This document shows, in pieces, positions 6,082-63,856 of a stretch of DNA of 64,000 nt; position 1 is the stretch's first letter, and each line of letters opens with the position of its first letter. The translations under genes were made by a program, and so were the position numbers. The stretch is from Aporhodopirellula aestuarii (lineage in GTDB: Bacteria > Planctomycetota > Planctomycetia > Pirellulales > Pirellulaceae). The notes beneath the pieces were generated by a model that saw nothing but the letters and a program-made list of their open reading frames with translations, did no database searches and was not told the DNA's origin. The stretch spans positions 62,001-126,000 of the forward strand of contig NZ_JAMQBK010000021.1 of the NCBI RefSeq assembly GCF_023701485.1, given 5' to 3'.

Positions 6082-6164
6082 AAAATTCACGATCGCTAGA
6101 AGAATCTCACGAGACGCTGTCTCGCTGAGGCTCCCTTCCCAGCGATTTTGAATCAAAACACCTC

Positions 6165-6206
6165 AACCCCGCGTTCGGATTGAAATCCGGCCGCGGGGTT
6201 TTTTCG
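6165..6206 (+). terminator. Rho-independent terminator after the Cys-rich gene
   Basis: The arms AACCCCGCG and CGCGGGGTT flank an AT-containing loop that itself holds CGGAT/ATCCG, and the hairpin is followed by a T6 run. It lies 84 bases after the stop codon. Confidence 0.85.
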
Positions 6207-6431
6207 TTGAGATGGCGCAGTTGTTTAGCTAATGATCTTTCGCCGACCCCAAACATTTGATTGTGGCCACCATCCTCGCTTGGTAAGCTGGGCATGGCCG
6301 GAGACGCGTTTCGTCGTGTTATTTGGAACGCATCCCCCCTCTTTCAGGTATCGGCTTGCTTTCGAGATTCGACTTCCGAGACCTCCCACCTTCCTTCCCA
6401 CCTAGCCTGTTTGCTTTAGGAAACCTCTCGC

Positions 6432-35593: not shown

Positions 35594-35794
35594 ATGATGA
35601 AAATGCTCACCCTTTTCGCGCTGCTGTTCGTCGGCTTTGTCGCCGTCGGTTGCGACTCGGCTTCGAATAGCAATGTCGCTGAGAGTGCTTCCGAAGATGC
35701 CAAAGAAGAATACCGCCGTCTCCTGAAGGAGTCCGAGCAGGGAATGGCAGACTTGGATGAAGAAGCGAAAGCCGCCGGCAACAAGCCCGACTGA
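35594..35794 (+). CDS. Small lipoprotein
   Basis: This is a 66-residue protein with a signal peptide (MKMLTLFALLFVGFVAVGC) ending in a lipobox with Cys20. The mature peptide is short and acidic (EDAKEEYRRLLKESEQ), probably one helix. It lies downstream of a DUF1559 gene, where such short lipoproteins are commonly found in planctomycetes. The function is unknown. A terminator follows. Confidence 0.7.
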   Translation: MMKMLTLFALLFVGFVAVGCDSASNSNVAESASEDAKEEYRRLLKESEQGMADLDEEAKAAGNKPD

Positions 35795-35825
35795 GCTCGC
35801 GATCTCTCAACCTGACCACCGAATC

Positions 35826-35856
35826 ACCCGCGTTGTTTTACCGACGCGGGTATTTT
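35826..35856 (+). terminator. Rho-independent terminator after the lipoprotein gene
   Basis: ACCCGCGT (35826-35833) pairs with ACGCGGGT (35844-35851) across a ten-base loop, followed by a short T-rich tract. Confidence 0.75.
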
Positions 35857-35895
35857 CATTGCGGGCAGTCGGATCGATGGTTGCTCGATGTCATT

Positions 35896-37219
35896 GACGC
35901 AGAGCCGCGAGACTCGCGAGAGTCGGGGAGATGCAGAGCTCCAGACTGAATTCAGCGCAGCGTTTTCTTTCTCTCATTCTCTGTGTCCTTGCGTCTCCCC
36001 GTCTCTGCGTCGACTTCTCAGAAGCCATCACTCTTGTCCAGTTCTCAAGCTAACACGCAGGTGTTGACGCAGAGCCGCAAGAGACGGGGAGACGCAGAGT
36101 TTCAGGTTCGGCTTAGCGCAGAGTTTTTCTTTTCTCATCCTCTGCGTCCTTGCGTCTCTCCGTCTCTGCGTCCGATTTTACAAACCATCCCCCGTCCAAT
36201 TCTCAAACCACCGCGTTCGGTGAGACTCAATGGATGCATTCAGGTTTTGACGCAGAGTCGCGAGAGTCGGGGAGACGCAGAGGTTCAGGCTGAATTCAGC
36301 GCAGAGTTTTCTTTCTCTTATTCTTTGCGTCCCCGCCTCTCACCGTCGCTGCGTCGACTTTTCACAATCCATTGACAACACGGTGAAACCCATCCTTGAC
36401 CATGCGTTCGCCAAAGTTCACGACAAGACCCAGTTTGAGATTCATCAATCGCAGATAGGTCAGGCACTGAACGGCGAAGATGTCGTTGTACTTCGAGGTC
36501 GCTTTGCATTCGACGACCACCAAGTCGTTAACGATCAAATCGAGTTTGAGTGGAGTTGCGAGTGTGCTGCCTTTGTAGCGAATGGGCACCAACTGTTGTC
36601 GTTTAACGCGTAGCCCTGCCTGATCCAATTCCCAGGCCAGTGCCTCTTCATAAACGCTTTCCAGCAATCCAGGTCCACCCAGCGTTCGATGCACTTCAAT
36701 GCAAGCGTTCAAGACAATGTTGCTGATGTCATTCTCGTGCATGTTTGGGTCCTTCAACGTTCTTAGGCAGAGTTGCGAGAAACGGCGAGACGCGGAGAAA
36801 CCGTCTCAATTCATCGCAGAGTTTAACGCGTGTGCCCCTCATCACAAATTATTGACAACACGGTGCACCATCCAATTCCCAAGCCAACTCGTTCGGTGAG
36901 ACTCAATGGATGCGCTATGACCTTGACGCAGAGCCGCGAGAGTCGGGGAGACGCAGAGATTCAGACCGGATTCAGCGCAGAGTATTGCTTCCCTCGTTCT
37001 CTGCGTCCTTGCGTCTCCCCGTCGCCGCGTCGACTTTTCACAAAACATCGCCCCATCCGATTCCTAGATCACCTCGTTCGGTGAGACTCAATGGATGCGT
37101 TATGATTTCGACGCAGAGTCGCGAGAGGCGGGGAGACGCAGAGATTCAGACCGGATTCAGCGCAGAGCATTGCTTTCTTCGTTCTCTGCGTCCTAGCGTC
37201 TCCCCGTCTCTGCGTCAAC
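35896..37219. repeat. Array of long imperfect palindromes around a GxxExxY gene
   Basis: There are five full copies of a ~110-base imperfect palindrome, at 35896-36013, 36066-36173, 36249-36358, 36925-37033 and 37110-37219. A degenerate left half lies at 36764-36830. Each copy opens with GACGCAGAG, contains GGGGAGACGCAGAG and an inner CAGCGCAGAG, and closes with CTCTGCGTCC, GTCTCCCCGTC and TGCGTCGAC. Spacers also recur: TTCGGTGAGACTCAATGGAT precedes three copies. The period is about 180 bases. This family of GACGCAGAG palindromes is known beside GxxExxY genes in several phyla. Confidence 0.85.
36362..36742 (-). CDS. GxxExxY-family protein
   Basis: This is a 126-residue protein of the GxxExxY family, named for the motif seen here as GLLESVYEEAL (about residues 26-36). 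A nuclease-like core follows: LDLIVNDLVVVECKA (about 66-80) has the Asp and Glu-x-Lys arrangement of PD-(D/E)xK folds. The gene sits inside the palindrome array, and its last codons (VVNGL then stop) fall in sequence that recurs at 36847-36868. The start at 36742 (MHEND) fits the family length better than the frame start 15 bases upstream. Function is not established; association with the repeats suggests a part in their spread or a cellular defence role, which is inference. Confidence 0.85.
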   Translation of the reverse strand: MHENDISNIVLNACIEVHRTLGGPGLLESVYEEALAWELDQAGLRVKRQQLVPIRYKGSTLATPLKLDLIVNDLVVVECKATSKYNDIFAVQCLTYLRLMNLKLGLVVNFGERMVKDGFHRVVNGL

Positions 37220-37500
37220 TTTTTGCAAAACAATCGCCACGGTCCGGTACGGTGGGTTGGAAGCAAACAGGTGATCACAAACAGTCACGCTGTGCGCCGG
37301 GAGTGGGATCGTTCGCGGGAAGTCATCCGTTGCAACGGATGCACCGGGTGTAGATTCTTGACGGCCGAGGCCGATGGAGAAATGTCGGGCCAAACACCGA
37401 AACTTGAAAAACGGCCGAGACACAGCGTTGATCGGCCGTCCCGAGGAGACTCTCACGGTGCGAACTGGCCGGGAGGGCCAATTCCGCAGATCGTGAAGAG

Positions 37501-47551: not shown

Positions 47552-47625
47552 GGGCGATTAGCTCAGTTGGTTAGAGCGCCACGTTGACATCGTGGAGGTC
47601 ACAGATTCGAGTTCTGTATCGCCCA
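47552..47625 (+). tRNA. tRNA-Val(GAC), probable integration site
   Basis: The 74 bases form a cloverleaf. Acceptor arms are GGGCGAT and ATCGCCC with discriminator A. The D arm is GCTCAGTTGGTTAGAGC. The anticodon stem CCACG/CGTGG encloses TTGACAT, anticodon GAC. The T arm is CACAGATTCGAGTTCTGT. An integrase gene begins 145 bases downstream in the same direction, so the 3' part of this tRNA is the likely attachment core. Confidence 0.93.
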
Positions 47626-47715
47626 TTTTCAGTTATACTGAAATCTCACCTGTTTTACCGGTCGAAACGCTCCTGAGCGTTACCGCCATCGTGGCGTGCG
47701 ACCCGTCAAAATTCC

Positions 47716-47744
47716 GAGTTTCTGATATTTGATATCAGAAACTC
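47716..47744. promoter_or_regulatory. 13-base inverted repeat before the integrase gene
   Basis: GAGTTTCTGATAT (47716-47728) and ATATCAGAAACTC (47732-47744) are a perfect inverted repeat with a three-base centre, ending 25 bases before the integrase ATG. It may be an operator for integrase control or an arm-type recombination site. Confidence 0.6.
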
Positions 47745-47769
47745 CCAATTTGATGGAGTTCGCAACGAA

Positions 47770-49011
47770 ATGTCACGTCCAAAGAAGGTTGCCCCGGATT
47801 ATCGCTACCACGTGAGTGGCCAAGCGGTCGTCACTTTCAACGGCACCAATTTCTATCTCGGTCCGCACAATTCGCCGGAATCAAAGGCGAAGTATCGCCG
47901 CCTCGTCGCGGAGTATGTCGCGTCGGATTTCCAAACGCCCGATGCGGGCCCCCGCCAGGCCGAAGTGCCGATCTTGGTTGCCGATGTCACCGCGGAAGCC
48001 CGTGATTGGATCAATTCCAAATACGCCAACTGCCAATCGCATCGAGCCCGGTTTCTAAACCTTTGCAATACATTGGATGATGAATACGGGGACACAACCG
48101 CTAACGAATTCGGTCCGCGAAAACTCTCAGAAATTCGAGACTTGTTTGTCGCGTCTGGGAACAGTCGGCGGTACGTCAACTCGCAAATCCGCAGCATCGT
48201 ACGAATCTTCCGCTACGCGCTCAGCCGCGAGCTGATTGACGCCAATGTGATTGTGCGTCTGGATTCGCTGGAGTCGCTTCGCTACGGACAAACTTCTGCA
48301 AAAGAACCAAAACCGGTCACACCCGTCAATCTTGCTGACGTTCGTGCGACAGCAGAACACCTTTCGCCGGTCCTCAAAGTAATGATTCGCGTGCAGGTCG
48401 CTACCGGCATGCGTCCTGGTGAAATGTGCCGCATCCGACCTGCGGATATAGAGGTTCGCCCCGGCGATGTGTGGGTCTACTGTCCGGCGAATCACAAGAC
48501 TGCTCGGCTGGGCAAAAAGAAAGCGGTGCCGATCGTGGGCGACGCAAGGGAAGCCCTCGAACCTTTCATGAACCGTGATCCGGACAAGTACTGTTTTTCA
48601 CCCAAAGAGTCCACTGCGTGGTACCGCCAACAACGAACGCTTAAACGCAAGACACCTGCGAACTGCGGAGACCGAGTCGGGCACAAACGTGGGAAGACAC
48701 TCAAGGGGGCTTCTGCCAAGCGAACTCCGGGCGACTTTTACGACAAAGACAGCTACCGCCACGCGATCCAGCGGGCCGCAGAGAAGGCAGGTGTCCCGCA
48801 TTGGTTTCCGTATCAATTGCGGCACACGGCAGGTACGGCAGTCCGCGAAGCCCTTGGTGTGGAGGCAGCTCAGGCGTTACTCGGACACTCACGCGCTGCC
48901 ATGACCGAGCACTACGCAAAAGTCTCGGAGTCGAAGGCGATTGAAGCCGCCAAATCGATCTCTGGCCTCGGCTTGTGCGAATCTACGACCTCCAAGCGAT
49001 CAGCAGGGTAG
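47770..49011 (+). CDS. Tyrosine recombinase (integrase)
   Basis: This is a 413-residue site-specific recombinase. The N-terminal SAM-like DNA-binding domain spans about residues 70-160. Catalytic residues are visible: Arg215 (ATGMRPGEMCRI), a Lys region (NHKTARLGKKK), Arg351 in FPYQLRHTAGTAV, His373 (LLGHSRAAM) and the nucleophile Tyr382 (TEHYAKVSE). The box II His is replaced by Tyr348, a change I associate with integrases of planctomycete elements. It lies next to tRNA-Val, which is the probable target. Length and layout are complete, so it may be active. Confidence 0.93.
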   Translation: MSRPKKVAPDYRYHVSGQAVVTFNGTNFYLGPHNSPESKAKYRRLVAEYVASDFQTPDAGPRQAEVPILVADVTAEARDWINSKYANCQSHRARFLNLCNTLDDEYGDTTANEFGPRKLSEIRDLFVASGNSRRYVNSQIRSIVRIFRYALSRELIDANVIVRLDSLESLRYGQTSAKEPKPVTPVNLADVRATAEHLSPVLKVMIRVQVATGMRPGEMCRIRPADIEVRPGDVWVYCPANHKTARLGKKKAVPIVGDAREALEPFMNRDPDKYCFSPKESTAWYRQQRTLKRKTPANCGDRVGHKRGKTLKGASAKRTPGDFYDKDSYRHAIQRAAEKAGVPHWFPYQLRHTAGTAVREALGVEAAQALLGHSRAAMTEHYAKVSESKAIEAAKSISGLGLCESTTSKRSAG

Positions 49012-49546: not shown

Positions 49547-50962
49547 TGGTGGCGTGGTAGCAATAAACGTTCGTTCGCCGCGTGTTTGGTATTTTCGTGG
49601 GTGAGTTTGATACGCTGAGTTCGACCGTAACTCTTCTGTGTACGATTTCGTCGATGGCTTTGGCCGTCGTCATCGTAGACTTGAGGATACGACTTCACGT
49701 CAAGAACTTCGGCTAGTCGGTGATGCGGGATTAACCATTTTCAATGCCACTGCTGCCGACATGCTTTTTATGCGAGAAGCCTCCCCCTACGACGCGATGA
49801 TAGGTCAGCGAACTGTAAGTGCTTGTCTGGTTCGCTGACCCAGGAATAGATGCGAATATTTGCGGTCAGAACTGCAGGGAAGTGTGGCGATCAATCGAAC
49901 ATAGGTTGTCGAAAGATGTCTCGCCGTCCCGGGGGATCCGGGCGACGCAGTGTATCGAAGAGTTCCCTTGGCCGAGTTCACCTCCAATTTAGCGAGCTTG
50001 AGCTGCCCCAAACGTTCACAATCGTAACAACGACCGGCTCTCACCCAGACACGCGATCTTTGAAATGAATCCGTTGTTGCCAGCATCAGACATGTAGCGA
50101 GCAAGCAATCCGCGGACATCCCTCAGGTCGATGCTGAATGCGATCGCGAGGTGACGCTCAAAATCGGCTGGATTCCTCGTGCAAGCAAATCAAACCCATC
50201 TGCTATTCGATCTTTTCCACCGAAAAGACAAGTGGACTCTCCGATGAGAAGCCGATCGCACCCCTGTGATCAGCATCGAGACCGTCATGAATCCGAAAAA
50301 CGAGGATCGATCCTCGCGCAACTCCGTTACGGACTCGTAAATGGATTGCGTCCAGTTCGTGAATGTCTCCATTTGGCACAAAGATGCAGCAGGCTGTGCT
50401 GATATCGTTGTACTTGCGAAACGTGGATTCGATAATCCTTCAATGTAGTGACCAGGGCTAAGAATATAGACAACACGTTACCCGAACCGATGCCCGCAGC
50501 ACGGAGGACTCGCATCGCGGAAGCGATACAAACGCAAGATGAAGATGACATCTCTTTAAGTCCTCTTGGTGCCCACCTCGGCAAGTGACTCCCTCAATTC
50601 GTGGCTACCGCCGTCGTTCGAATTGCGTCGTTCCAAATCGCTTGCCACGGCATCCGCTCACCTAGCAGGCTGCTTGCTCGGATCCCGTCTTCGCATCAAA
50701 AACTTCTATTTGGCGAACGTCGTGACTGTGTCACGCTTTCCGAGAGTTCACGCCCACGATCACTAGGCATTGTTGCGAAGCGAACGAAGTAGGCAACCTC
50801 CCCTGCCCCAATTGCCCTGTTCCAGGACATCGATCTGGGAACGGCATCATACGGCATGGTTAAGGCTTCTCGACAGTGCCCGGGGCCAACACTGGCCCTT
50901 CACGTCCGATCGTGGGACGAGCTATTTGGCGAATCAGTAACGATCCTGTCCTGGAGACCCTA
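49547..50962. other. Non-coding gap of the element
   Basis: This 1.4-kb stretch has only short open frames, none with a credible start or motif; the longest on the plus strand is 66 codons at 49638. It contains the first 16-base palindrome (50301-50316). The 14-base AGCAAGCAATCCGC near 50099 recurs near 53541. It may be eroded coding sequence. Confidence 0.4.
50301..50316. repeat. Palindrome CGAGGATCGATCCTCG, copy 1
   Basis: A perfect 16-base palindrome preceded by AAAAA and followed by CGCAACTC. It lies in the gap upstream of the first ParB-like gene. Confidence 0.85.
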
Positions 50963-51843
50963 ATGTCCGACGCTGTCAACAACAACGCTCCCAAATCCAC
51001 CATCCCATCCCTTGACGCGTGCCTCGCGGAGTTGAAGGCTCTAATCACGGGCGCCCACGAAGCATGTTTGTCGGTTCCCGAAATGGGGGCCGAGGATTTC
51101 GGCAACCTAATCGAGTCGATTAAGGAGTACGGTCTACTGATCCCGATACTCGTCGATCGCGAGCGAAGGTTGCTTGACGGTCGGCGTCGCATCCTTGCCT
51201 GTCACGCTGCTGGCGTTCGTCTCGAAGAGGCGATGATTGACGAGACCGATGAAACTCCCGAAGCCATCGCTGAGACCAACTTTGCTCGGCGGCATCTGAC
51301 CCAAGACCAGCGAGCCATGAACGCCACCGAGCTACTTCCGTCATTTCGAGATGCCGCCAAAAAGCGGAAGATGGCAGGTGGAGAAAAAGGGGCGTAGATC
51401 CAAATACGAACCCCACAGCGAAGGCATCGACATCCGACACTCCAGAGAAACAGTCACGCCGCCCCCGTGCGATTGAAGAAGCAGCCAAGCATGCCGATGT
51501 TCCACGCCGATTACTCGAGAACGCAGACAAACTCAAAAAGGCGAGTCCTCCAATCGCGGAGTTGGTCATAGGGGCGGACGTATCACTCGAAGAGGGGCTC
51601 ACCTACCTCGGTGGTCCAGTCGATTGCGAGCATTGGCTGCGACACCTGAGTTTCCTGGGGCAAGAGCATGACCTGAACACGCCGGAAGGACGAGAGCGTG
51701 AGGCTCTTGAGTTGCAGGTGCTGAGTCGGCGGCTACACAGTAACGGGACCGCGATGTCTCCGGAGAAGCTGCTCAGGTGCCTGCCGGATATGCGGGTATA
51801 TCCAGTTCACCTCCTGTTTCAGAGCTTCTATCGCAGCAGCTAG
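50963..51843 (+). pseudogene. Frameshifted ParB-like gene fused to the end of an HTH-protein gene
   Basis: From the ATG at 50963 (GGAG seven bases upstream) the frame encodes a ParB-like N-terminal domain (NLIESIKEYGLLIPILVD, then LLDGRRRILACHAAG) that resembles the intact protein at 59182. It stops at 51397 after GGEKGA, at an A5G4 run. The next frame continues the homology (PRAIEEAAKHADVPRRLLEN matches PRALEKVAKEEKVPRADLAL). It then runs directly into GGPVDCEHWLRHLSFLGQEH, homologous to the C-terminal part of the protein at 60284. So a frameshift and an in-frame deletion have joined two genes. It is probably non-functional, although a programmed shift at the A5G4 run cannot be excluded. Confidence 0.75.
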
Positions 51844-51976
51844 GGCAAACTCTCGGTTCGCCTGTAGGGCCCCGGTAGGCTCGCGAGCAAGCCGCCACGG
51901 ACTGTCCATCCGTGCCCGAATCACTGGCTTCGTTCGCGACTTCTCGCAATTCGTCAAAATGTTGCACAATGCCAAC

Positions 51977-52765
51977 ATGATTATCGAGCAGCGACTACAT
52001 CAATATTTTGTCTATCGGGCTGAGCGGGTTGGCAAATCGATTCGCAAGACCTACGTCGGGCCAATGTCCGATCCGTTGATCGAGATGCTTTTCCGGAAGG
52101 AACGCCTCGATAACGCCAGCGAGGCGGCAACACAACTTCGCCTCGATAAAGAGATCATCGCGTCAGAGAAGATTGACGATACGATCACTCACCTTCTTGA
52201 TCACGCCTCCAACTGGCGTGTTATTGCCGCTCTCCTGGCCCGAACCACAAATCACGAAACCGATCAAGAGAAGCTTGTGCGAAAAGCGAGACTACCCGGA
52301 ATCAGGGAATTTCGGCAGACCTGCCGTCTCTCCGATAAAGGCGATGTTGAAGCGATGGAGCAGTTGGAGGCGTGGAGGAATACCTGCCCCGAGCAACTGA
52401 AAGCCGTGACCAACCTCGTCGAGCTCGGTCTCGCACAATTACTCGACGCTCTGGGCGACACCGATCCTGCGGTTCGCGTGTTAGTGAAAAATCAGTATGA
52501 GGAGAACGCGTCCAATCTACGGACGAGCCTCGTTGGACTCGAAGATCACCCAATCGCAGAGCTTTCAGCCGATCTGGTCGCCCTCGCCCATCTCAACGCA
52601 ATGCGCTGCGGACTGGCCGCGAACCGGGTAATCGAGCTAACCCAGACGGATAAGTATTGGCAAAAGGCATTTGACAGAGCGTCGAAGTGTTTCGACAATG
52701 CAAAGAGCCGATTTCGAGAACTCGAACGTGACTTGGTAAAAGCCAAGGCGGATACTTCCTCATAG
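51977..52765 (+). CDS. YVG protein, first copy (unknown function)
   Basis: This is a 262-residue protein, paralogous to the one at 61183. Shared features are the N-terminal YFVYRAERVGKSIRKTYVG followed by SDPLIEMLFRKERL, a central FRQTCRLSDKGDVEAMEQLEAW, and the C-terminal helix LAHLNAMRCGLAANRVIELT followed by YWQKAFDRASKCFD. It is predominantly helical and charged, with no catalytic motif. Proteins with this basic 'YYxRxxRxxGKxxKxYVG' opening recur in planctomycete elements. The ATG at 51977 aligns with the start of the paralog. It follows the decayed ParB-like/HTH gene but is itself intact. Confidence 0.7.
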   Translation: MIIEQRLHQYFVYRAERVGKSIRKTYVGPMSDPLIEMLFRKERLDNASEAATQLRLDKEIIASEKIDDTITHLLDHASNWRVIAALLARTTNHETDQEKLVRKARLPGIREFRQTCRLSDKGDVEAMEQLEAWRNTCPEQLKAVTNLVELGLAQLLDALGDTDPAVRVLVKNQYEENASNLRTSLVGLEDHPIAELSADLVALAHLNAMRCGLAANRVIELTQTDKYWQKAFDRASKCFDNAKSRFRELERDLVKAKADTSS

Positions 52766-57240: not shown

Positions 57241-58299
57241 ATGACTTACAGTGAAGAAACACCTCTGCCCTCTTTACCTTCGGTTGCTAGTTTGCTGTCA
57301 GCTACCCATGGCAAATGGCGTGATGCGCTTATTGATGGCGGCATTCCTGCACCGAAGCTCGATGGGGAGCGGCATTCCTGTCCACGCTGCGGGGGGTGGA
57401 ATCGCTTCTATGCCTTGCCAGACGTCGACCAGCATGGTCGCGTTCACTGCGATCGTTGCTTCAATGCGGCGACAGTCGTTGGAGTTGACGGCATCACATC
57501 TCTCCAATGGGTGATGGGGGCCGACTTTGGGAGTGCGTGCATATCTTTGTCGAATCGGTATGACCTCCCCGGCTTCCCAGCGAATCTTCGCGTACCAATC
57601 GCGATCACTAAGACGCTGCAGGAATATGCTGCGGCTCTTCGCGCGGAGGATCCGCCATCAACCGATATTGCTCAGATCTCGCTGGACTTCCAAGCGGCTG
57701 CCACAGAGGAAAAACTGCGTGAGTGCTCTCGATGTCTGAACTTGCAGGAACCATCGCTACAGCGACTGGAAGTCGGATGGTCGCAAAGTCATGAGGCTTT
57801 CACATTCCCGATGGAAGACGGATGGGGAAGGGTGTCCGGACTACGTCTTCTCTCATTGAAACGTGGCGAGACTTGGTCGCTGGGTGGAGCGGCTACCGAA
57901 GGCCTGTTCGTGCCCATCGGATTAGTGGCACCTACGTCTCGTCTGTATATTGCCGAGGGACCCGTCGCGGCGGCAGCGTGCCTTTCTTTGGGATTGCCCT
58001 GCATTGGGAGTTCCGGACGGCTTCAATGCGAGACGCTGCTTCAGTACAAACTGATGACACTTTGTCCAATGGAATGCGTTTTCATGACCGATCAAACGGG
58101 AATGGGCATCGGGGGTGGCCGTGAACTAGCTGATTCAATAGCAAACTGCAGTCGCTCGATTCGACTAGTCGTTCCCCCTAAACCCTACAGCACTATCAGT
58201 GAATGGCTGACGTCCAGTAGCACTCGGGCTGACGTTGAGGAGCAGGTTGAGGCATGCACCGTCTACTCCCGGCGAGAATCTGGCAGCAGTGCTAGTTGA
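57241..58299 (+). CDS. Zinc-ribbon/Toprim primase-like protein
   Basis: This is a 352-residue protein. A zinc ribbon of the phage P4 primase type lies at residues 47-73 (CPRCGGWNRFYALPD, then GRVHCDRC), with Cys47, 50, 70 and 73. The C-terminal part is Toprim-like: RLYIAEGPVAAAACLSLGLP has the conserved Glu-Gly, and CVFMTDQTGMGIGGGRELAD fits the following Asp motif, although the second Asp is replaced. A middle linker (about 95-225) is helical. The start has GGAAGGA five bases upstream. No helicase domain is attached, so it would work with host or element helicase. It is likely a replication primase of the mobile element. Confidence 0.8.
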   Translation: MTYSEETPLPSLPSVASLLSATHGKWRDALIDGGIPAPKLDGERHSCPRCGGWNRFYALPDVDQHGRVHCDRCFNAATVVGVDGITSLQWVMGADFGSACISLSNRYDLPGFPANLRVPIAITKTLQEYAAALRAEDPPSTDIAQISLDFQAAATEEKLRECSRCLNLQEPSLQRLEVGWSQSHEAFTFPMEDGWGRVSGLRLLSLKRGETWSLGGAATEGLFVPIGLVAPTSRLYIAEGPVAAAACLSLGLPCIGSSGRLQCETLLQYKLMTLCPMECVFMTDQTGMGIGGGRELADSIANCSRSIRLVVPPKPYSTISEWLTSSSTRADVEEQVEACTVYSRRESGSSAS

Positions 58300-59099
58300 T
58301 CGATGTCGTCGGTGACTAGGAGACCGTACGGAGCAGAAAAATCGAATTCGCGATGCGGACCTGTGCCTCAAAAATGGCGACACGTCGGCTGGTCAAATTC
58401 GACAGGCGATATTCCAAGGGATCACTAAACGTACCCTCAACGCAAGGTACGTCCCGGAGTAGTCCGCGTTCGCTCTCAAAGGTAGCTGCCCGCTTAATCG
58501 CTGGAACTGTTTCGCAACCGTCGGTGACGAGTTCTCGCGGATTGGATGTGGGCACTTGCCTTGCTGATCAAGACAGCCCGCCTTGAGATCGGGTAGCTAC
58601 CACCAAGCTCTCGACGGGGTGGGCAGGCAAGCGTTGGGGCCGCTCACCGACGAAATCAAGAGCGGCTGCCGCTGAGCCTCGATCCTCGGTGTTTAAGCAC
58701 AGTGCAACAGCCGAGAATCGCATCTCGGTTGAGCCCCGTTTTCACGCTCTCTGGCGTAGCCGAATCGTTGGCGGGCACCTGGACTTCGCCACCTTTAACT
58801 CAGCCCCCGATGTTTTCACGGAGTAGTCCACCTCAGACCACGGAAAGTTACGCCGAGACCTCGTCTACTCGGCGATAGGCCGATGCAAAGGTAGACATGA
58901 TCCCACCCACGGTACTGGACGAGACGGGGATGTTCTCGTCCTCCGCGACGGCTTGGCCTTGTAAGTGGACTGGCGGTCCATCATCCCAACACCCGCCTTG
59001 CTGAGTAGCGTAGTCCAGCCGTGGCACACGTTTTTGGTGCTTCAGCGTCATGCGTGCATGATACCGCTGTCACCACGATCGCTACCAACCAATCCTATG
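58300..59099. other. Non-coding gap before the structured element
   Basis: This 800-base stretch has no supported gene; a 67-codon minus-strand frame at 58848 lacks a motif. A degenerate version of the 16-base palindrome, with the right half GATCCTCG intact, lies at about 58673-58688. Confidence 0.35.
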
Positions 59100-59168
59100 G
59101 GGGCGGCGGCTAAGTTCTCCCGAGTGCTTCGGAGATCGCGGTGACACGTGCCGCCGCCCCTTTTTTTT
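59100..59168 (+). ncRNA. Structured leader element, copy 1
   Basis: GGGGCGGCGGC (59100-59110) pairs with GCCGCCGCCCC (59150-59160) and T8 follows. Inside the stem are CTAAGTTCT, a hairpin CTCCCGAG/CTTCGGAG with one bulge, and CGGTGACACGTGCCGCC. The same arrangement recurs at 63322. The ParB-like gene starts 13 bases after the T run, so the element sits in its leader. It could be an attenuator, a cis-regulatory RNA or a DNA site. Confidence 0.55.
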
Positions 59169-59181
59169 CCAGAACGTCAAC

Positions 59182-60120
59182 ATGAACGAGAACAAGTATT
59201 CGCCTCGCTACCAGCGCCCAAAACTCGCTGCGGCCTTGCAGCATGCTGCATCGCTCGTCGGAAAGGTACACCCGATGTGCAACGCGCTCCCGGTAATCTC
59301 AGCCCGTGACTTCGACAATCTGGTCGACTCGATCAAGGAGAACGGTCTGCTAGAGCCTGTCTACGTCAATCGTGACAAACAGCTACTCGACGGTCGCTCT
59401 CGGCTCATGGCGTGCCTCGTGGCCGGCGTAACCGTCACCGCTGATCACGTGGAGGTTACGGATCACAGCCCCGAGGCGATCTCGCAATCCAACGTGGCCC
59501 GGCGTCACCTCACTGAAAATCAAAAACTGATGAGGGCTGCTGATCGCCTTGCATCGCAGCGGAAACATGCGGCAGATCGCCAGGCCGCCGGTGCAGAGAA
59601 AGGTCGCGAGCGCCAAAAGCAGCCGGCCGGCGCAAAGCTTGCGACAAACCAAAAAAGCAAGAAGCGTAGTCCCCGTGCCCTCGAAAAAGTAGCCAAAGAG
59701 GAGAAGGTGCCGCGAGCTGATTTGGCATTGGCCGAGAAAGTTGTGCAAGCTGTTCCTAAACTGAAGGCCCGGATTGAATCCGGAGAGTTATCGCTCGACG
59801 ATGCGGCTGACCTTGCTGGTGTGCCCCGCAAGCAACCCAAGGCCTCACGCCCTAAGAAACAGAAGTCTTCGCGACTGCACCAAGACCTCGACGTTGTCAC
59901 CGACCATGGCGGCGGCATCCGCGAGCTAACAGCACCCGGTGTGTCAGTGTTTGCTCATCCCGAGCTAGATGTCTCGATCATGGTGTACGGACCCGGCAGC
60001 GATAAGTACATAGGAGCCACCAACGACGAAGAGCACGTGGCGGTCAATCCGGACACTCCTCTTGTAGAGCAAGCGATCGACCTTCTGAAACGGAAACTCA
60101 CCCAGATCCCCCAGGCGTAG
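59182..60120 (+). CDS. ParB-like protein, intact copy
   Basis: This is a 312-residue protein. The ParB/sulfiredoxin-type N-terminal domain covers about residues 25-115: FDNLVDSIKENGLLEPVYVN, then LLDGRSRLMACLVAG. The usual GERR CTP-binding motif is replaced by DGRSR, as in plasmid and phage ParB-like proteins. A helical region (SQSNVARRHLTENQKLMRAA) and a Lys/Arg/Gln-rich linker follow. The second HTH-like region is RALEKVAKEEKVPRADLALA. The C-terminus (about 230-312) has small beta-rich sequence of unknown role. No ParA gene is in the window. It could bind the element's palindromes and aid maintenance; that is inference. The structured element precedes it. Confidence 0.8.
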   Translation: MNENKYSPRYQRPKLAAALQHAASLVGKVHPMCNALPVISARDFDNLVDSIKENGLLEPVYVNRDKQLLDGRSRLMACLVAGVTVTADHVEVTDHSPEAISQSNVARRHLTENQKLMRAADRLASQRKHAADRQAAGAEKGRERQKQPAGAKLATNQKSKKRSPRALEKVAKEEKVPRADLALAEKVVQAVPKLKARIESGELSLDDAADLAGVPRKQPKASRPKKQKSSRLHQDLDVVTDHGGGIRELTAPGVSVFAHPELDVSIMVYGPGSDKYIGATNDEEHVAVNPDTPLVEQAIDLLKRKLTQIPQA

Positions 60121-60173
60121 GCGACTCGGACGCCCAAGGTAACCGTCAGGACAATTAAGCTGGCCTCACATCT

Positions 60174-60193
60174 GTCTGGGGGAGGCCCCAGAC
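60174..60193 (+). terminator. Hairpin between the ParB-like and HTH genes
   Basis: GTCTGGGG and CCCCAGAC form a perfect eight-base stem with a four-base loop, 53 bases after the ParB-like stop. There is no T run; it may attenuate read-through. Confidence 0.4.
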
Positions 60194-60283
60194 GCTTCAT
60201 ATGCAGGTGCTCTGCAGCATGCGACCGAGTTAGCCAACGCTGCTGACATTACTTCGAAGCGGCTCTAAAGAAACACGAGAATC

Positions 60284-61105
60284 ATGCTGAACGAAAGCGA
60301 CTTTGATGGGGCCCCAAAAGAAATTTCACATGAGTTTCTCCGCAGCGTGGGCTTGCACGTACATGGGCCGAATTGGCGATACCAGAAGGCAATGAGTATT
60401 GTCAGCTCCGATAAAGCTCGCCACGCCATCGAGCTGGGGCCTATCATCTGGCTCATTGTCGATCATTTTCGACCAGTACGAGAATCTTACAGGGCTCGAC
60501 TCGTGCGTGACCGCATGGCCAACGTCGCCGGAGCGGTGGCGTTGCACCGGGACGCACTGATGCGGTTGAAGGTGGAGGCTCGACTCCTAGCTGGGCTCTC
60601 GTGCAAAGAAGTCGCAGCCAGGTCGCACCTCGAAACTGAACTAGTTCAAGACTACCACGACATCTTCTTCGATGTGAAAGATCGCCTCGGCTGTATCAGC
60701 TGGATCATGCAGCACATCGCAGCCAGTGAAAGTCAGCCTCGTGATCATCTTCGTCGCACCCTTTACCGCCACGCCTTCCAAGGTGGGCCTGCCGTCTGCG
60801 AATACTGGATAGATCACCTCGATCGTTTCGGTGACGAACACGATCTGAGCACCGCCCAGGGAAGGGCTGCTGAGGGGCTGGAACTGTGCGTATTAGGTGA
60901 GCAGCTTTGGGACGATCCATCGTCCCTGCGTGCGTTGGTGCACTTGCTCGATCTGGCGCGGCCCGCAGTTCCTTTGCCGAACACCATCGAGGGCATGGTC
61001 AGTCGCAGAGTAGGGCAAGTGTTCCTGTCTCGCTTGGCAGGGGAGGCCGATGCAGCTTCCCCTGTAAAGGCGGCACCCAGCGGCAAGGATCGCGTGGTCG
61101 CGTGA
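60284..61105 (+). CDS. HTH protein of the ParB-like cassette
   Basis: This is a 273-residue protein. A sigma region-4-like helix-turn-helix lies at about residues 92-120 (RLLAGLSCKEVAARSHLETE, then LVQDYHDIFFDVKDRL), similar to cassette proteins of planctomycete elements. The C-terminal part has GGPAVCEYWIDHLDRFGDEH followed by DLSTAQGRAAEGLELCVLGE, which recurs at the end of the pseudogene at 51843. No catalytic motif is seen. It probably binds DNA and forms a unit with the ParB-like and YVG proteins. Confidence 0.7.
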   Translation: MLNESDFDGAPKEISHEFLRSVGLHVHGPNWRYQKAMSIVSSDKARHAIELGPIIWLIVDHFRPVRESYRARLVRDRMANVAGAVALHRDALMRLKVEARLLAGLSCKEVAARSHLETELVQDYHDIFFDVKDRLGCISWIMQHIAASESQPRDHLRRTLYRHAFQGGPAVCEYWIDHLDRFGDEHDLSTAQGRAAEGLELCVLGEQLWDDPSSLRALVHLLDLARPAVPLPNTIEGMVSRRVGQVFLSRLAGEADAASPVKAAPSGKDRVVA

Positions 61106-61182
61106 TGTTTTTGCAAAAATGCCAAGTCTGTTACACAAAGAATTCACGTGTGTTGGATTTCGATCTCAAGGGAATAAAGCGG

Positions 61183-61965
61183 ATGACGATCGAGGGACGA
61201 CGGGGAACTCCCAAACAGTACTACACCAAGGTCAAGCGGATCGATGGAAAGCTGAAAAAGGAATATGTCGGTCGCCTTTCAGATCCGTGCGTCGGCATAC
61301 TCGTACGCGAAGAGCGGCTGCGGAAGGCGACAGCCGCCGCCCGTGTCGTGGAGATCAACGCTGAAGTGGAGAAGGCAAAACAGACCGAAGCCCACTTCAT
61401 AAAGATCGTCCAAACCTCACGCTGCTGGAAAGTACTCCTCCGGATAATCAACCTTCAACCAGCTACAGCCGAAACACTTCCGATGTCAACGCCATTATCC
61501 TCCGAACTACCCAAGCTTCACCTGCTTTCAGAGACCTGCCGACTCGCCAATCAAGGCGACGAGGCAGCGGCAGCAAAGCTCAACCAGTGGATCAATGCCG
61601 CACCGGAACTCTTCAGCAAGGCAACCGATGCCCTCGAACTCGCTCGCGAGACACTGGTTCGCGACCTTGCTGGCGAATCCGCAGAGACGGAAGCGCTGCT
61701 ACGGAGCAAACTCCAGCGGGATGCTGATGAATTGATTAACTCGATGGAGGATGACCCGTTGATCAGGCACTACGCGGAAACGGTCATATTGGCCAAGATG
61801 GACCTGGTTCGCTGCGAGTTTGCAGGGCTCCGTTCGAATCTTAGTATCTCGGTTAGGAGGTACTGGGAGGGCGCACTCACACGGGCGCAGTTGCGATGGA
61901 TCAAACTGAACAAGGCGTTTCGGCAAGCCGTCGCGGAGCGGGCCAGAGCGACCCGCGAGAAGTAA
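61183..61965 (+). CDS. YVG protein, second copy (unknown function)
   Basis: This is a 260-residue paralog of the protein at 51977. It opens QYYTKVKRIDGKLKKEYVG then SDPCVGILVREERL, contains LSETCRLANQGDEAAAAKLN at the centre and ends LAKMDLVRCEFAGLRSNLSI then YWEGALTRAQLRW. An upstream in-frame ATG at 61105 overlaps the HTH gene stop (TGATG) and is an alternative start, which would imply translational coupling. The ATG at 61183 is preferred because it aligns with the first copy and has AAGGGA upstream. It is helical and charged, with no known domain. Confidence 0.7.
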   Translation: MTIEGRRGTPKQYYTKVKRIDGKLKKEYVGRLSDPCVGILVREERLRKATAAARVVEINAEVEKAKQTEAHFIKIVQTSRCWKVLLRIINLQPATAETLPMSTPLSSELPKLHLLSETCRLANQGDEAAAAKLNQWINAAPELFSKATDALELARETLVRDLAGESAETEALLRSKLQRDADELINSMEDDPLIRHYAETVILAKMDLVRCEFAGLRSNLSISVRRYWEGALTRAQLRWIKLNKAFRQAVAERARATREK

Positions 61966-62072
61966 CACGACCGACAGTCGAATGGCAATCAGACGCCGTC
62001 AATGCACGAATATGGTGACACGAAAACCGACGACGACCACGATGCGTGGCTGATGGACCCAATCGCTTTCCG

Positions 62073-62549
62073 CTAGCATTCTAGCCTGCCATGCTGCTCG
62101 ACAAGCACCTCATGCGCATCACTGGCAGCCCGCAAGAGGTTCATTATTAGGGGCGATAAAATATTGGATTCTTCTGGTAATCCCGCAATGTAAGCCAAGA
62201 AAATGGTGATGGCGCGCGAACGAGTGATTTCGTTCTCAATAGAACATTCATCACTTTCCGATTCCTCGTGCAATTCGAATCGACACATAAGGTCATCCAA
62301 CACTCGGTCAGCCTCTTCTTCCGAGAAGAGCCACTCAGCATGTTCGAAATGCTCGAAAAACCATCGGTCGAACTCATGAATCTGCCGGACTAAATGCGTC
62401 TCGGCCTTGGCGTTGCTGTAAAGACCGTCACATTCTGACAATAGTCCATGGATTGGCTTTTCCTCTAGTGCTAACTGGGTCACCTTGATCAATGTACGTG
62501 GTTGGGGTAGCGAACGCATTGTTGTCCTCAGAAAGTAGATAAGTTTCAC
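62073..62549 (-). CDS. Hypothetical protein, perhaps the second half of a broken gene
   Basis: This is a 158-residue acidic, helical protein (HEFDRWFFEHFEHAEWLFSE, then EEADRVLDDLMCRFEL). No domain is recognised. The upstream frame (62428-62787) overlaps it by 122 bases on the same strand with similar composition, so the two may be one gene split by a frameshift. Other starts, such as the Met at residue 11, are possible. Confidence 0.4.
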   Translation of the reverse strand: MKLIYFLRTTMRSLPQPRTLIKVTQLALEEKPIHGLLSECDGLYSNAKAETHLVRQIHEFDRWFFEHFEHAEWLFSEEEADRVLDDLMCRFELHEESESDECSIENEITRSRAITIFLAYIAGLPEESNILSPLIMNLLRAASDAHEVLVEQHGRLEC

Positions 62550-62787
62550 AGCCTGCCACGACGGCTCCGTGTTGAAAGTAGGGTTGATCTTGAATTTCAG
62601 CTTTCGCCCTGAACTCAGGAAGAGCGAGAGAGGCGAGCGTTGACGTGATCTTCTCGACCAGTCTCAATACCTTGCCCGAGGATCGACATGCGTCCAATAG
62701 GTGTTTTTGAATTTTTTTGCAGGTGCCAGGACCGCGGTGAGCTGATTCATCTATCGATGTGTCATCGCCCGCGTCACGAACATCCAT
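62428..62787 (-). CDS. Hypothetical protein, perhaps the first half of a broken gene
   Basis: This is a 119-residue frame with a helical segment (CKKIQKHLLDACRSSGKVLR, then LVEKITSTLASLALPEFRAK). It is followed in the next frame by the protein ending at 62073. The residues after CETYLLSEDNN look less natural, which fits a frameshift near 62520. No family is recognised. Confidence 0.3.
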   Translation of the reverse strand: MDVRDAGDDTSIDESAHRGPGTCKKIQKHLLDACRSSGKVLRLVEKITSTLASLALPEFRAKAEIQDQPYFQHGAVVAGCETYLLSEDNNAFATPTTYIDQGDPVSTRGKANPWTIVRM

Positions 62788-63321
62788 TGCGACGCCCGAC
62801 TTGATCTCATGTCGATCACCAGACCTCTTGGCGGATGACCGGCATCAAAATTAATCAGTGCGTGATAGCTCGCCGCGACGCCTTATGCATGGGAGTCGTC
62901 CTGCGAAGCTCTGGGAGCTAATAGGAGTCGCCGATGTGGGATAATCGTGGCTTCGAATGGGATGCAGCCGGCAACGGATTTGCGATGTGGCAGCAGTCCT
63001 CCGAGCTTCTCAACCAATTCACTGGCTTGGCGGAGTTAGTAACTGGGGTGACTCGACTCCGAATGGCTCATTGATCTCATTGAGCAGGAGGAACGTTCGC
63101 TTTGCACGCGATCTTGTGGGACGGTTGGAGTTGGGCATCGGTGATGTTCGCATTCTCGATCGCGAGGCATTCCGTTGCCATGGGGTCGCAGGACGTTTGG
63201 CGTATCTGTCACTGGGCTCCATGCCTGCCGACCATTGCCTTTCCGTCGGCATCGACACCTTTTTGGCATTTCTTTTTTTTCGGCAAGATGAGTGAGTCAT
63301 CGTGGTTAATCCACACAGAGG
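62788..63321. other. Gap before the second structured element
   Basis: This 534-base stretch has overlapping short frames on both strands (for example 62957-63295, plus) without ribosome binding sites or motifs. I see nothing I can support as a gene. Confidence 0.3.
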
Positions 63322-63381
63322 GACGGCGGCTAAATTCTGCTCGACGGCTTCGAGCGAATTACGGTGACACGTGCCGCCGTC
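63322..63381 (+). ncRNA. Structured leader element, copy 2
   Basis: GACGGCGGC (63322-63330) pairs with GCCGCCGTC (63373-63381). Inside are CTAAATTCT, a perfect hairpin GCTCGA/TCGAGC with AATTC/GAATT extension, and CGGTGACACGTGCCGCC. Compared with copy 1 the outer stem differs in sequence but keeps pairing, which favours a conserved structure. It lies 29 bases before a small gene. Confidence 0.55.
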
Positions 63382-63410: not shown

Positions 63411-63611
63411 TTGACTACGAACTTGACCGCATTTCAGTGGGAACTGATCTTGTTTACCCTGCGCGGAGGCGACTCACCCGCTGACACCGGTGGACAACAC
63501 CTAAAGCTCGACAAAGACGATATCGAGTACCTGTCGGACGGGCTGCGCGACTGTAACTTGCTTCACGCCGTTCAGATCGCCACAGAGGTAGGTCGTGGGA
63601 AGATGAGATGA
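63411..63611 (+). CDS. Small protein of tandem pair, first copy
   Basis: This is a protein of about 66 residues. From TTG 63411 it reads LTTNLTAFQWELILFTLRGG, then SPADTGGQHLKLDKDDIEYL, and its homology with the next gene begins at once. The start is uncertain: no ATG lies close and the frame is open further upstream through the structured element. Its stop overlaps the next ATG (ATGA), so the pair is co-translated. Function is unknown. Confidence 0.5.
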   Translation: MTTNLTAFQWELILFTLRGGDSPADTGGQHLKLDKDDIEYLSDGLRDCNLLHAVQIATEVGRGKMR

Positions 63612-63856
63612 AAACGACTACCAGGTTGACCACGTATCAGTGGGAGCAGCTTTTGTTTACCCTATGCGGAGAAGACGCGTCCGTAGACACCGGTGGTCAA
63701 CCGCTTGAACTCGATAGTAAAGACATCGAGAACCTCGTGGAGGAGTTGCACGCGTGTAACTTGCTTCACCGTGTTGGTCGCCACACTAGGCAGAGGGAAG
63801 CATGCCAGTGGATCAGGCAAGCTGCCACAGAAACACCTCCTCATGGACCTAATTGA
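63608..63856 (+). CDS. Small protein of tandem pair, second copy
   Basis: This is an 82-residue protein (LTTYQWEQLLFTLCGEDASV, then DTGGQPLELDSKDIENLVEE and ACNLLH) homologous along about 55 residues to the gene before it. The C-terminal 25 residues are unique. The ATG overlaps the preceding stop. Tandem duplication is evident. No known domain or catalytic motif is seen. Confidence 0.6.
   Translation: MKTTTRLTTYQWEQLLFTLCGEDASVDTGGQPLELDSKDIENLVEELHACNLLHRVGRHTRQREACQWIRQAATETPPHGPN

Follow-up and report, generated by a model that had tools for sequence, protein, structure and literature searches.

A putative pseudoknotted or two-state mRNA leader before ParB-like genes in an integrative element of Aporhodopirellula aestuarii

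Two leader copies and their relatives

The DNA analysed here (the window) comprises 64,000 nt of contig NZ_JAMQBK010000021.1 (C80) of the planctomycete Aporhodopirellula aestuarii, which has a genome of 9.07 Mb. A gene for a ParB-like protein is preceded by a structured hairpin at 59100-59160, and a second copy of the hairpin at 63320-63381 precedes two tandem small open reading frames (ORFs). The original prediction had described two such elements of ~60 nt, sharing sequence blocks and each standing just before a gene. The sequence, the coordinates and the downstream genes proved to be as described, and the blocks common to both copies were recovered as repeat families D13 and D14. The ~60-nt hairpin, however, is not the unit: the leader is ~90-120 nt long and has an upstream arm, termed A, so that each of the two copies covers its 3′ half alone. 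This arm, the promoter-like block in front of it and the pairing of A with a segment A′ inside the hairpin, which crosses the closing stem P1, had been missed (Table 1).

Table 1. Parts of the two leaders and the genes that follow them, in window coordinates
Feature	Position	Strand	Sequence	Remark
Putative promoter-like block, copy 1	59034-59062	+	TTGGTG, 17 nt, CATGAT	TTGGTG 59034-59039; CATGAT 59057-59062
Arm A, copy 1	59068-59080	+	TGTCACCACGATC	Predicted 5′ end of leader RNA; 12 of 13 positions pair with A′
P1 5′ arm, copy 1	59100-59110	+	GGGGCGGCGGC	
P2 inner hairpin, copy 1	59116-59135	+		Read from sequence; present in minimum free energy fold
A′, copy 1	59134-59146	+	GATCGCGGTGACA	Pairs with arm A across P1
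P1 3′ arm, copy 1	59150-59160	+	GCCGCCGCCCC	T8 follows at 59161-59168
ParB-like gene	59182-60120	+		312 aa; curated and PHROG profiles, PDB profile comparison
Putative promoter-like block, copy 2	63263-63289	+	TTGGCA, 15 nt, CAAGAT	TTGGCA 63263-63268; CAAGAT 63284-63289; weak
Arm A, copy 2	63295-63307	+	AGTCATCGTGGTT	Pairs with A′ at 12 of 13 positions, counting wobbles
P1 5′ arm, copy 2	63320-63330	+	GGGACGGCGGC	
P2 inner hairpin, copy 2	63339-63355	+	GCTCGA / TCGAGC	
A′, copy 2	63357-63369	+	AATTACGGTGACA	
P1 3′ arm, copy 2	63373-63381	+	GCCGCCGTC	No T run after
First tandem small ORF	63411-63611	+		TTG start chosen; ORF list gives long frame from 63102
Second tandem small ORF	63608-63856	+		

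The protein encoded at 59182 matches PHROG ParB-like families. TIGR00180 is hit with an E-value of 1.1e-5 and 25.3 of 58.45 bits, under the cut-off, and Pfam ParB_N with 13.4 of 26.3 bits (19.4 for the relative in genome G158). A profile of eight homologs, compared with the PDB, finds ParB chains weakly, with E from 8e-4 to 0.03. Since the scores of the curated ParB/RepB/Spo0J models are not reached, the gene is called ParB-like only.

The genome matches the block CGGTGACACGTGCCGCC perfectly at three places (copy 1, copy 2 and contig C99) and with two mismatches at four others. Five copies served to build a covariance model, which was run over 241 genomes of the family and gave nine matches in five of them. 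One match, in G056 (36.9 bits), was weak and terminator-like by eye and was dropped, which leaves eight copies in 4/241 genomes: three in the genome of A. aestuarii, two in Rhodopirellula europaea 6C (G152a and G152b), one in R. rubra (G158, also listed as Aporhodopirellula rubra) and two in another genus (G146). Seven of the eight, all but copy 2, are followed by a ParB-like gene of the same orientation. Among 392 genomes of the phylum, the model found, besides A. aestuarii, weak matches in six (27-34 bits, E 2.6e-4 to 0.0075). Exact leader patterns were absent from the viral contigs searched. In genome contigs the first pattern gave no match, and the second matched R. europaea 6C twice and R. 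rubra once; a lone Streptomyces match was taken as chance. No leader was found in plasmids.

The relatedness of the leaders does not follow that of the proteins. Among the pairs compared, the leader of copy 1 most resembles those of G152b and G146:C39 (78-79% alike), with the G152b protein 37% like that of the window, whereas it is 64-66% like the leaders of G158 and C99, whose proteins are the closest (70% alike). The C99 copy precedes a ParB-like gene 71% identical to that of the window, and its leader is 92% like that of copy 2. From these comparisons, it seems that leaders either are exchanged or diversify separately from the gene they precede. The C99 leader (L009:15515-15606) carries an internal duplication of 24 nt, a multiple of three, that extends the inner hairpin P2 into a long stem.

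Crossing helices and a recurring layout

When the upstream DNA of the eight copies was aligned, conserved blocks appeared from ~35 nt before arm A. The consensus of A, TGTCAYCRYGRTY, with a variable first base, is complementary to that of A′, RATYRCGGTGACA; in C99, A′ has AACC where the others have RATY. A few bases separate A′, which lies within the hairpin, from the 3′ arm of P1. As P1 encloses A′ but not A, the helices A:A′ and P1 cross, as in an H-type pseudoknot.

The six further copies allow a statistical test of covariation that two copies could not. Over both helices of the eight-copy alignment, 94.9% of 197 cells are paired, vs. 27.9-58.9% with the partners slid by one to three columns, and both the number of paired cells and the covariation score were reached by 0/500 shuffles. 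There are six double-change pairs in all, three in A:A′ and three in P1. Taken alone, A:A′ has 94.2% of 104 cells paired, again with 0/500 shuffles reaching the paired cells and the score. When 12,720 pairs of 11-column blocks were ranked blindly, using columns with letters in at least seven of the eight rows, six block pairs proved to be paired to 90% or more and to contain two or more double changes; all of them are registers of P1 or A:A′. With shuffled columns of the upstream region, the observed best was reached in 0/200 trials. The top pair of P1 is U.U, A-U, G-U, C-G or G-C depending on the copy. Each of the crossing helices has changes on both sides, arising from few independent events. 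Selection on structure, which the original prediction had proposed from two copies, is well supported for a small family by these comparisons and by the return of the same layout, in unrelated sequence, at two other loci.

This was observed with a scanner for the order A-L1-P1-middle-A′-P1′ (L1 being the loop between A and P1), run on 29 regions, of which 28 precede ParB-like homologs and one is copy 2. The seven regions of the leader class have stacking energies of -39.7 to -53.9 kcal/mol, with 0/40 shuffles as good. Among the 22 other regions, G146:C36 (-50.3) and G155:C44 (-44.5) stand out, and in a larger run 0/600 shuffles reached these two or copy 1. Their downstream proteins are 35% and 23%, respectively, like that of the window, the start codon lies 23 and 15 nt beyond the end of P1, and a hairpin is seen by eye at the place of P2. 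The two leaders had no DNA relatives, themselves excepted, among 40 and 39 genomes, respectively. A further candidate, G146:C13 (-37.3, 0/40 shuffles), was rejected, as its match reads as conserved ParB-like coding sequence, and before G159 a strong A-like pair encloses a stem, as judged by eye, instead of crossing it. The remaining 19 regions were not outstanding, the best being 50876 and G073 (1/40 shuffles each). A later scan of 18 regions, five of which repeat earlier loci, was run without shuffles and with the start assumed for some minus-strand loci; it gave no layout beside a start, the best (L092, -40.5) lying 210 nt from the protein match.

When 824 real tiles of 340 nt from five sources were scanned, ten reached -44, and five of these are the leaders described here. 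One of the others is a proline-rich coding repeat and four fall in a repeat family at window positions 35701-37400. The units of that family are GACGCAGAG and GGGGAGACGCA; their inverted, shifted copies also give crossing complementarity, and the family is taken as unrelated to the leaders.

RNA or DNA, and the competing explanations

TTGG occurs 32-35 nt before A in nine of the ten leaders (all eight class copies and G146:C36; in copy 2 it and the distances were measured by hand on the sequence), and ATGAT ends 5-6 nt before A in 6/8 copies. With this spacing, the 5′ end of an RNA would fall at A. The spacer of copy 2 is shorter than that in the other copies, and a strict sigma-70 scan did not list the block of copy 1. 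The sense strand has 12 G.U cells in six columns vs. four A.C or C.A cells in two. From the end of P1 to the start there are 15-29 nt across the ten leaders and 18-29 nt across the eight copies; in seven of these the start is that of the ParB-like gene and the distance is 18-23 nt. The G.U excess, the promoter-like spacing and the distance from P1 to the start favour an RNA. Fold energies, compared with 200 shuffles, gave z-scores of -3.7 for copy 1, -4.5 for copy 2 and -8.9 for the C99 copy, and the copies beat all shuffles. The opposite strand of the window copies also beats its shuffles (z -4.9 and -4.6), so folding energy cannot tell the strand.

We infer, with a probability of roughly 0.55, that the element is a pseudoknotted or two-state 5′ leader of an mRNA, which sets the expression of the ParB-like gene in an integrative element, most likely at translation. 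Transcription would start at or near A, directly after the promoter-like block, and on the emerging RNA A could pair with A′ while the 3′ arm of P1 is still to be transcribed. P1 may then close across A:A′ to yield an H-type pseudoknot with hairpin P2, the form of which varies among sequence types, inserted. Alternatively, the RNA may switch between the two pairings, P1 replacing A:A′. The usual ribosome footprint is such that an end of P1 18-29 nt before the start codon lies just outside it, and control of translation initiation (and of mRNA stability) is therefore the most likely step. Copy 2 would put a second transcript under the same control, and the ParB-like product, an antisense RNA or a host factor could act on the leader.

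A number of observations weigh against such a leader. The fold with P1 is the lowest in energy in all eight copies, and folds with A:A′ lie 0.1 to 16.6 kcal/mol above it; these values come from nested folding, which scores P1 and A:A′ as alternatives only, and a knot of both helices would be lower in energy if the loops allow it. Steric strain is to be expected, as L1, of 9-22 nt, must span both A:A′ (8-13 bp) and P1 (9-14 bp), and A′ is only 0-5 nt from P1′ in the scanned leaders; hence a two-state switch appears as likely as the full knot. The promoter-like block matches the consensus at 8/12 positions at most (7/12 in copy 1), and G155 has no TTGG. The number of double-change pairs over both helices was reached by 25/500 shuffles and that of pair types by 298/500; for A:A′ alone, the two counts were reached by 123/500 and 491/500, and in the first alignment of five copies by 104/500 and 198/500. 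All the covariation shuffles ignore the relatedness of the copies, which fall into about three sequence groups with about five or six double-change events, and one position of A:A′ is A.C in three copies. In the scan for the layout, copy 2 is weaker, 3/600 shuffles being as good. The layout is present at 7/13 of the closest ParB-like loci (E <= 1e-40), absent at six, and found at none of the remote ParB-like loci scanned. Finally, G146:C39 shows only the first bases of its ParB-like gene before the contig end, and the ParB-like gene of G146:C16 is short.

The site may instead act as DNA. A and A′ might be the inverted half-sites of an operator or a centromere-like site for the ParB-like product or a repressor, with the crossing as a by-product. 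They do form an inverted repeat next to a ParB-like gene and its promoter-like block, joint changes in the two half-sites would be expected of an operator as well, and the element holds another site-like palindrome in five copies. However, the layout in which P1 is crossed is found again at two loci of unrelated sequence, which argues against one shared operator, the half-sites of copy 1 are 53 nt apart around a GC-rich stem, and neither the sense-strand excess of G.U over A.C nor an end of P1 at 15-29 nt from the start codon fits such a site well. We regard this explanation as unlikely, if still credible. The motif of arm A, GTCAYCRYGRT with at most one mismatch, has 44 occurrences in the window vs. 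a shuffle mean of 21.1 and a largest value of 33; over-represented but spread through the window, it was discarded as a wider operator. The folded single strand of a mobile element, recognised like an integron attC or as an origin or nick site, would account for the GC-rich imperfect hairpin with conserved extra-helical bases, for an opposite strand that folds equally and for the tyrosine integrase of the element. Such a site, on the other hand, would hardly be oriented at 18-23 nt from a ParB-like start in 7/8 copies, and the three perfect places in the genome form no array. The core boxes of integron attC sites are RYYYAAC and GTTRRRY; by eye they were not seen in the copies, no pattern search having been run. 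This explanation is very improbable.

Two further explanations place the action at RNA. The original prediction had likened copy 1 to an attenuator. In such a device, P1 and a T run would stop transcription early, and A:A′ would be the competing structure. Copy 1 indeed has T8 after P1 and a terminator-like site scored at 59138-59157, and G158 has T5, but a run of at least five T after P1 is found in just these 2/8 copies, the others keeping the structure, and therefore termination cannot be the common function. Moreover, the five terminator-like sites of the scanned region are no excess over shuffles (mean 4.1, standard deviation 2.3). Attenuation is accordingly improbable in our eyes, and of the first interpretation, selection on structure is supported, the attenuator idea is weak and the 60-nt hairpin is too short a unit. 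A translated leader peptide, with an upstream ORF through the hairpin that acts by attenuation or re-initiation, seems the least probable of all. In several copies, an ATG within the CATGAT block or beyond it does open a frame that continues through the hairpin; in C99 and copy 2 this frame runs on into the downstream gene, and in the other copies it was read by eye. Yet the frame through the hairpin differs between sequence types, as judged by eye; in G152b that ATG is missing, and a 1-nt loop indel separates G152b from G152a; and the ATG, overlapping the predicted -10 box, would not be part of the transcript. As for a small-molecule riboswitch, nothing points to one, the downstream genes being mobile-element genes.

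The pseudoknotted or two-state leader may be taken one step further. Two leader types coexist in the genome of A. aestuarii, and it is conceivable, though rather improbable, that ParB-like proteins of planctomycete integrative elements are under the control of a new class of leader pseudoknots, which keep their layout while the arms diversify between elements in one genome. Each element or gene would then respond to no leader but its own, and the arms would form a compatibility code, with the ParB-like product or an antisense RNA as its reader.

The element and related systems

A gene for a tyrosine integrase (47770-49011; Pfam Phage_integrase E 3.2e-20, PHROG integrase) adjoins a tRNA-Val at 47552-47625, and the region to the right is therefore most likely an integrative element, of which window positions 47552-49011 are likely the left end. 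A second tRNA-Val end was not found in C80:62001-131813, the part of the contig searched. The two genes that follow the ParB-like gene (60284 and 61183) have relatives in other elements and gave no family match at E < 0.1 in Pfam, NCBIfam and PHROGs. Searched against the 241 family genomes, the second small ORF found nothing but itself and the first one. Relatives of the ParB-like protein occur in 18/241 family genomes and 9/396 order genomes with the single protein as query, and in 28/241 family genomes with a profile. In viral contigs, the single protein found none and the profile three remote ones; remote relatives are also present in seven records of a plasmid collection and one of a phage collection.

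Other features of the region deserve mention. Positions 50876-52765 hold a second, divergent module of a ParB-like gene and follower, with a TAG inside the match and no leader. A perfect 16-bp palindrome, CGAGGATCGATCCTCG, is found at 50301, 53040, 53938 and 56977 of the window and at L008:8647; these are its five places genome-wide at up to one mismatch, all in this C80 stretch, and it is a candidate site for a ParB-like protein or a repressor. Upstream of copy 1, 57241-58299 encodes a zinc-finger protein whose match to a primase in PHROG is weak (E 0.004). An inverted stretch of 161 bp, 91% identical between both contigs, lies at L008 ~6085-6244 and L009 2090-2250.

The original prediction had assigned the element to no known class, and no Rfam family matches it. 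At gathering scores, Rfam 15 reveals only two tRNAs in the whole window, and in permissive scans, one of which covered four loci, the best sub-threshold hits at or near the leaders stayed far under the required scores, with 12.3 of 65.3 bits in one case and 22 of 78 bits in another. No title describing such a leader was found in the open-licence literature searched. Ribosomal-protein leaders such as the S15 pseudoknot have differing sequences with like folds before the same gene family and are often bound by the product. The leaders reported here likewise reach like folds with differing sequences before one gene family; in contrast, the gene belongs to a mobile element. The preQ1-II and SAM-II riboswitches are H-type pseudoknots near the start codon and resemble the proposed structure in this respect, but here there is no Rfam match, the downstream genes are not metabolic, and hairpin P2 lies between the 5′ strand of P1 and A′. 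With an intrinsic terminator, the leaders share a GC-rich stem and, in 2/8 copies, a T run, which is absent in the other six; the conserved interior and the upstream arm also set them apart.

In the I-complex and IncL/M plasmids, the crossing helix is a short loop pairing, whereas A:A′ of the planctomycete leaders has 8-13 bp. Pseudoknot control of plasmid replication genes is, by analogy, the nearest working counterpart known to us. The plasmid systems share with the proposed leader a position in a mobile replicon and a crossing helix upstream of the start that controls translation of a DNA-maintenance gene. They differ in hosts and sequences, the gene here is ParB-like and not Rep, and no antisense RNA or coupled leader peptide is shown for the planctomycete leader; by eye, its copies have no reading frame in common. 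Pseudoknot-dependent control of the replication genes repZ of ColIb-P9 and repA of IncB and IncL/M plasmids is referred to in two papers (PMC10724649, PMC10286972).

A leader whose layout persists while its sequence is replaced would be missed by similarity-based searches. RNA-level copy control is best known from enterobacterial plasmids, and to our knowledge little cis-regulatory RNA has been described in planctomycetes. The leader offers precise mutants, with three sequence classes in one layout. If it does act as RNA, it would link the partition-like genes of integrative elements to RNA-level control of expression or copy number.

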